Part shown: positions 626-4,223 of the stretch, one piece after another
Position numbering within the stretch: position 1 is the first letter of the stretch
Layout of the letters: each line of letters begins with the position of its first letter
Assembly: GCA_003224085.1 (NCBI GenBank)
Contig: QHYK01000102.1
Coordinates: forward strand, 1 to 64,000
From: Acidobacteriota bacterium
GTDB lineage: Bacteria > Acidobacteriota > Terriglobia > Acidiferrales > UBA7541
Direction of reading: 5' to 3'
Length of the DNA: 64,000 nucleotides
Made by a program: the position numbers and the translations under genes
The notes under the pieces: generated by a model
The model's input: the letters and a program-made list of their open reading frames with translations, nothing else
Told to the model about the DNA's origin: nothing
Databases searched by the model: none

Positions 626-940
626 ATGATGCGAGCAACAAGAACACGAACAGCGGGACGGCGCAGCCGGCCAGTGAAGCGCACGGCGAAGCGCCGCATT
701 GCAAAACTACACAAGCCGGCGCGTCCGGCGGGGCGCGTGCCCGTAGCTCCCCCAGAGCCGGTGCTTTACAAGCTGTGCAAGCCGGGGTGGGCGGTGATCG
801 TCGAGCGTATCCCGAACGCGCAGGGCACGCGCTTTGTTTGCCCGTTCTGTCCGAAGTCGCACCGCGTTCCCGGGCCCGTGCGCGGGTTCAAAAAAGTGCG
901 CCGGGCGCAGTGGGGCCGCTTGCGACGAGTGGAGGAATAG
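626..940 (+). CDS. Unknown basic Cys-containing protein inside the S10 operon
   Basis: A 104-residue ORF sits between rplB and rpsS, where most bacteria have nothing. I chose ATG 626 because a GTGAGG Shine-Dalgarno-like stretch (614-619) lies 6 nt upstream; GTG 614 and ATG 629 are alternatives. The stop is 7 nt before the rpsS start, and the rpsS ribosome-binding site overlaps its last codons, which suggests translational coupling. The N-terminal 40 residues are very rich in Arg and Lys. The C-terminal half holds Cys51, Cys72-Pro-Phe-Cys75 and His79, a possible zinc site. I do not recognise the family. An RNA- or ribosome-binding role is inference from charge and location. Confidence 0.6.
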
Positions 941-3869: not shown

Positions 3870-4223
3870 ATGGCGCTGACACACGCAAGAGCCGAGCGGC
3901 ACCCGATTCAGATCCGCAAAGGGGACAACGTGAAGGTGCTGGCGGGTAAAGACTCCGGGAAAAGCGGCCGCGTGCTTTCCGTCAACCCCGTGAAGAACAC
4001 GGTTGTGGTGGAGCACGTAAGCATCATCAAGCGCCACACGCGTCCCAACCCTTCGAAAAACATCAAGGGCGGGATCGTGGAAAAAGAAGGCGCCATCAAT
4101 GTTTCCAACGTGATGGTGATCTGCCCCAGCTGCGGCAAACACACGCGCGTCGGCCACATGATTTTGCCGGACGGCTCGAAGATGCGCAGTTGCCGGCATT
4201 GCAAGGCGACTCTGGACAAGTAA
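3870..4223 (+). CDS. rplX: 50S ribosomal protein L24 (zinc-ribbon form)
   Basis: L24 initiates 50S assembly. A KOW-type motif ([20 protein letters not shown]) lies in the N-terminal half. The C-terminal part carries paired cysteines at 85/88 (CPSC) and 108/111 (CRHC), so this is the Cys-containing, probably zinc-binding type. At 117 residues it is of normal length. The ATG is 3 nt after the rplN stop. Confidence 0.96.

Follow-up and report, generated by a model that had tools for sequence, protein, structure and literature searches.

A conserved gene for a basic Cys/His protein between rplB and rpsS in a single acidobacterial family, a candidate ribosomal protein or assembly factor

We analyzed a stretch of 64,000 nucleotides of acidobacterial DNA (contig QHYK01000102.1, positions 1 to 64,000; the window in the following), which opens inside rplB and continues with a short ORF and then rpsS. 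The ORF is confirmed as a real, conserved gene. It is absent from the relatives examined outside one family of Acidobacteriota, fixed in position, and universal in the readable genomes of that family, and its C-terminal domain (C-domain) changes about as slowly as the neighboring ribosomal proteins. Its product is probably a lineage-specific ribosomal protein of this family or a factor binding the assembling ribosome. We infer the association with the ribosome from the position in the operon, the basic composition, the universality in the family, and the ribosomal-protein-like rate of change.

The 3' part of rplB (uL2, 3-560 on the + strand, with its start before the window and its stop codon at 558-560) matched Pfam PF03947 (E 9e-55) and PF00181 (E 2e-7), and rpsS (uS19, 948-1304 on the + strand, from the ATG at 948) matched PF00203 (E 5e-39). 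The uS19 of the window has an Ala/Pro/Gly-rich C-terminal extension past residue ~90. The first-pass annotation had placed an ORF of 104 codons plus TAG between the two genes, at 626-940 on the + strand, and this ORF is present as described. Two tandem ATGs lie at its start. The ATG at 626 exists as proposed, but the conserved start is three bases on, because the homologues align from the second ATG at 629 (M-R/S/T-A-T-R) and many of them do not have the first. The likelier gene is 629-940 on the + strand, encoding 103 residues (104 if translated from 626) with the stop codon TAG at 938-940. The proposed residues Cys51, Cys72, Cys75, and His79 were correct when counted from 626 and become C50, C71, C74, and H78 from 629, the numbering used here. 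The description of the protein as strongly basic also held: 29 Lys and Arg stand against 4 Asp and Glu in 103 residues, with a computed pI of 12.0, which is the upper limit of the pI routine.

Both ribosome-binding sites of the first-pass annotation were found on the + strand. The Shine-Dalgarno-like GGTGAGG at 613-619, 6 nt before the ATG at 626 and 9 nt before that at 629, is a plausible site of the ORF itself, and GGTGAG(A/G) occupies the same place in 18 of 30 same-genus loci (L001-L030). The Shine-Dalgarno sequence of rpsS, GGAGGAA at 931-937, overlaps the end of the ORF within its last codons (Val-Glu-Glu). In seven loci (L113-L116, L119, L120, and L125), rpsS starts ~30-85 nt further down and the protein end is still similar, and 55 of 57 distinct sequences end in Glu, indicating that the end of the ORF is not kept solely through the rpsS site. 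The search of 400-1400 gave no sigma-70-like promoter and no terminator-like site on the + strand, and four terminator-like sites on the - strand.

The distribution of the gene was examined with profile A1, built from 36 sequences, in 95 genomes of the order. It matched 77 of them (E 2e-57 to 7e-32), and all 77 carriers belong to the family of the window's genome, which is represented by 89 genomes. Two other families of the order, with 6 genomes, gave no match. Within the family, the 12 genomes that A1 did not match likewise gave none for rpsS and are uninformative for that reason; the operon is probably missing from these assemblies. At the level of the class, 78 of 399 genomes matched, namely the 77 carriers plus G200 (E 3e-4, the match being interrupted by a stop), and in a draw from the phylum, one of 396 genomes matched, the window's own. 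Profile A4, made from the C-domain only, matched the family at E up to 4e-35 and gave 2e-4 as the best value elsewhere among the 399 genomes. When A4 was run at E up to 1, some match appeared in 277 of the 399 genomes, weak outside the family. In the class searches, scoring was limited to the 12 and 16 best candidates of each genome, and a strongly diverged relative could therefore escape them. Outside the family, matches with E <0.001 lay in G200, G132, G130, and G052. That in G132 is antisense to a 293-residue ORF and that in G200 lies in another frame on the same strand of a 581-residue ORF, with its stop inside, and both were counted as chance. Those in G130 and G052 cover 22 residues in a 37-codon frame.

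Six exact peptide patterns, searched over 84,980 species genomes, returned 33 loci, of which 32 carry acidobacterial titles and one is titled Betaproteobacteria. We took the latter as mislabeled because its uL2 is 91% identical to that of the window. No plasmid and no viral contig was found carrying the gene. Going by the titles of the relatives, the carrier family is Candidatus Acidiferrum/Acidoferrales, subdivision 2; in the NCBI taxonomy, Candidatus Acidiferrales belongs to the acidobacterial class Terriglobia. The genome of the window has one match to the gene. Two copies on different contigs were seen in G007 (C33 and C35) and G093 (C34 and C63), perhaps reflecting strain mixtures.

Synteny was read in 125 loci; many genomes occur twice among them, and the number of carriers covered is 52 of 77. 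Matches to uL2 and uS19 were found in all 125 loci, and the ORF lies between them in all 110 loci that carry it. Counted by genome, it stands between rplB and rpsS in 52 of 52 carriers, bearing out the first-pass expectation of a homologue at the same locus in relatives; the 12 family genomes lacking it are those that show no rpsS. The gap between rplB and rpsS measures 330-585 nt in 20 divergent loci of the family, against -4 to 130 nt in 15 genomes from outside it, which have no match to the ORF. The simplest explanation of the pattern would be that the ancestor of the family gained the gene once, between rplB and rpsS.

Sequence change was analyzed over the C-domain. The domain was picked by the pattern C-x3-W...C-x2-C, which is present in every ORF-bearing locus; the 15 loci failing it are those outside the family. 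It is exactly 60 residues long, without indel or stop, in all 110 loci. Across 57 distinct DNA sequences, 25 of the 60 columns are invariant in the protein, and all 23 degenerate columns among them use at least two codons. Mean pS was 0.56 and mean pN 0.13 over 1596 pairs, giving a pN/pS of 0.24 in frame 0 (ratio of means). The ratio exceeded 1.5 in the other two forward frames and in two of the three antisense frames. It was 0.35 in the remaining antisense frame, a value that we take to reflect the constraint on the sense frame. Compared with the window, pN/pS was 0-0.13 for 29 loci of the same genus (L002-L030), 0.19 for the more divergent L117 of that genus, and up to 0.39 across the family. 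Purifying selection on the frame is thus strong, by pN/pS and by the synonymous codon change at invariant columns, and neither of the two outcomes that the first-pass annotation named as refuting its proposal was obtained. Over the same 1538 pairs, mean pairwise identity was 0.80 for the C-domain, 0.84 for uL2, 0.87 for uS19, and 0.74 for uL22. The distances of the C-domain correlate with those of uL2 (r 0.86), uS19 (0.79), and uL22 (0.87), where uL2 and uL22 correlate with each other at 0.86. These correlations fit vertical inheritance.

The protein consists of two parts. The N-terminal tail (43 residues, 629-757 on the + strand) has a Lys/Arg content of 35% in the window, and neither its length nor its sequence is constant among the homologues. 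The C-domain (60 residues, 758-937 on the + strand) contains the invariant positions C50, G53, W54, V56, T67-C74 (TRFVCPFC), SHRV, GPVRGF, W95, L98, and R100. All 57 distinct sequences have C50, C71, C74, and H78, the three cysteines belonging to the pattern by which the domain was picked. These four residues are candidate metal ligands, in a spacing not assignable here to a known class. In the AlphaFold2 models, the domain has five short beta strands and most of the tail has pLDDT <50; mean pLDDT was 65.5 for the full length and 65.6 for the domain, and the five models differ much. With such models, the structural searches say little: Foldseek found no structural match (best E 5.8 and 3.2), and no VIA-align Z reached 2, with 113 and 95 chains aligned.

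Searches of Pfam, NCBIfam, and PHROGs with the window protein or with its domain alone returned no family, even at E up to 5, and the PDB chain sequences contained no significant relative, among solved ribosomal proteins or elsewhere. Full-length members matched seven Pfam families weakly (best E 0.046). Some members of the domain set also gave weak matches to the Pfam zinc-finger models DUF7836, DUF7560, Elf1, Sec23/24, and FGT1 (9, 9, 6, 4, and 3 of 23 members, respectively, at E up to 5; best E 0.0021, for DUF7836), whereas the domain of the window matches none of them. A stretch of 20 residues around the CPFC knuckle resembles eL43/L37a of eukaryotic ribosomes, but the E values of 0.063 and 0.22-0.26 are not significant, and nothing alike was reported beyond the knuckle. 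The other hits among PDB chains were weaker. The window's own uL24 (3870-4223) shares with the ORF protein a CPxC followed by a basic stretch, but its second CxxC is missing from the ORF protein. Profile comparison did not support an origin as a duplicate of the CxxC part of uL24: hhalign gave a probability of 4.7% over 20 columns, which is no evidence of homology. The hhalign values against uS14, uL2, uS19, and uS17 were 0.3% or less. The first-pass annotation had suggested an undescribed ribosome-associated or RNA-binding protein. "Undescribed" stands over the searches of Pfam, NCBIfam, PHROGs, PDB sequences, and the literature covered, and ribosome association or RNA binding is plausible rather than proven.

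We propose the following course for the gene and its product. The gene would have been gained between rplB and rpsS and inherited vertically with the operon. It may be co-transcribed with rplB and rpsS, as suggested by the lack of + strand terminator-like and sigma-70-like sites around it, and translated from its own Shine-Dalgarno site; together these would give a product in amounts like those of the neighboring ribosomal proteins. The C-domain would fold compactly around a metal, probably zinc, held by the three cysteines and the histidine. The tails of many ribosomal proteins bind ribosomal RNA, and here the C-domain and the flexible Lys/Arg-rich tail may both do so. The most specific form of this proposal is a new integral ribosomal protein with a metal-binding C-domain of no known family, fixed in one acidobacterial family through an insertion in the middle of the S10 operon, and we regard it as quite possible, if short of probable.

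The product would add to the ribosome and replace no protein of the S10-region cluster. The downstream cluster, including uL30 and bL36, reads complete, with its members named by eye and Pfam confirmation for uL2 and uS19 alone. Replacement of an operon protein was accordingly rejected for the cluster, where uL30, bL36, and the other members are present by eye. We also considered a new rRNA expansion as the binding site. No 23S rRNA indel of at least 6 nt relative to E. coli was common to six family sequences and missing from three outgroup genomes, where one of the six family sequences is partial and another is interrupted by an insertion and cut short, and the expansion was rejected on this result. 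The length of 16S rRNA looks ordinary: the eight family genomes matched in full have 1504-1560 nt, and three outgroups have 1497-1541 nt. The negative 23S result leaves ribosome binding standing but takes away one possible support.

Some further features were seen in the rRNA genes of the family. An insertion of ~670 nt splits the 23S gene of the window's genome at E. coli position ~1924/1925 (L167 165-834, G000:C91), and the 23S gene of G036 has one of ~557 nt at the identical position (L150 1343-1899). Both insertions resemble group I introns (Rfam RF00028, E 0.0012 for the window's genome and 5.6e-7 for G036, below the gathering score). The insertion in the window's genome holds a 181-residue ORF with LAGFIEGEGS, which we take to be a LAGLIDADG-like motif. 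Within the 6.2-6.9 kb downstream of 16S, there was no 23S match in seven of eight family genomes (L148, L149, and L151-L155), the exception being G036. Matches on other contigs were present for four of these seven (G000, G108, G074, and G111), and no 23S match was found in G010, G068, and G083.

The spacers beside the gene also contain recurring sequences. Several genera of the family (L058, L061, L063, L111, L112, L114-L116, L119, L120, and L125) share a near-identical block, C(C/T)G(G/A)CGCGGCGGGT, at 16-27 nt before the ORF start, and in 6 of the 11 loci it follows an alternative ATG in frame. In genus g2, GC-rich palindromic repeats (e.g., GGCGGG...CCCGCC) occur in the spacers beside the ORF, on both sides in L120 and upstream in L119.

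Other functions would also fit some of these observations. A trans-acting regulator of the S10 cluster, which would bind mRNA or rRNA, perhaps in response to zinc, without being a component of the ribosome, agrees with the position in the cluster, with a basic and probably metal-binding protein, and with the GC-rich 14-nt block upstream of the start in several genera. The block was rejected as a family-wide regulatory site, however: the window's own genome lacks it, and counted over whole genomes it is no more frequent than its control (9 occurrences in seven genomes, 4 of them beside the gene, against 10 for the backwards control), so that its place alone is notable. No family-wide target site was found. 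Regulators also rarely change as slowly as ribosomal proteins, and the slow change of this protein argues against the role, which we consider unlikely. We hold it more doubtful still that the product is a general nucleic-acid-binding protein, for example a nucleoid-associated one, placed in the operon for strong expression only. The computed pI of 12.0 and the Lys/Ala/Arg-rich tail, which is reminiscent of histone-H1-like tails, would suit it, but the location is constant in every genome read, and strong conservation marks the Cys/His domain rather than the tail.

The invariance of C50, C71, C74, and H78 would suit a redox or zinc-handling protein, storing or sensing metal and coupled to ribosome synthesis. 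Yet 21 of the 25 invariant residues (TRFV, PF, S, RV, GPVRGF, W, and others) are non-ligands, suggestive of a binding surface, and no convincing match to a redox family was found, the one thioredoxin-type model matching 1 of 23 members at E 0.19. This function appears very improbable. That there is no gene at all, but a chance frame kept open by GC-rich sequence, is hardly credible. High-GC genomes keep many frames open, and several antisense ORFs overlap this one, but the explanation is refuted by pN/pS, by the synonymous change in 23 of 23 degenerate invariant columns, and by the absence of indels and stops in 110 loci.

A ribosomal protein limited to one lineage would have known counterparts. 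According to one report (PMC10618245), bS22 and bL38 of Borrelia are small, lineage-limited ribosomal proteins that were missing from annotation until a ribosome structure and mass spectrometry revealed them, and mycobacterial bL37 is another small protein of this kind; bS22 is 61% Lys/Arg, and Borrelia bL38 binds H95 of 23S rRNA. The ORF protein is like all three in size and lineage restriction and like bS22 in charge. It differs in that its gene lies in the S10 operon, that it has a Cys/His domain, and that it is known from the gene alone. The comparison with the three uses their descriptions in that source, and none of them was among the PDB chain matches listed for the ORF protein. We found no description of the gene in the literature searched, which excluded subscription papers and preprints.

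Among 33 relatives identified from their titles, 32 carry the label of metagenome-assembled genomes, and it is therefore likely that no ribosome from this family has yet been studied. The reading as a ribosomal protein or assembly factor predicts a 12-kDa basic protein in purified ribosomes of the family, or in metaproteomes of the soil and peat where the family lives. The S10-spc-alpha cluster is among the best conserved bacterial gene orders. A gene that was gained within it, became fixed in place, and changes slowly points to a change in the ribosome itself.
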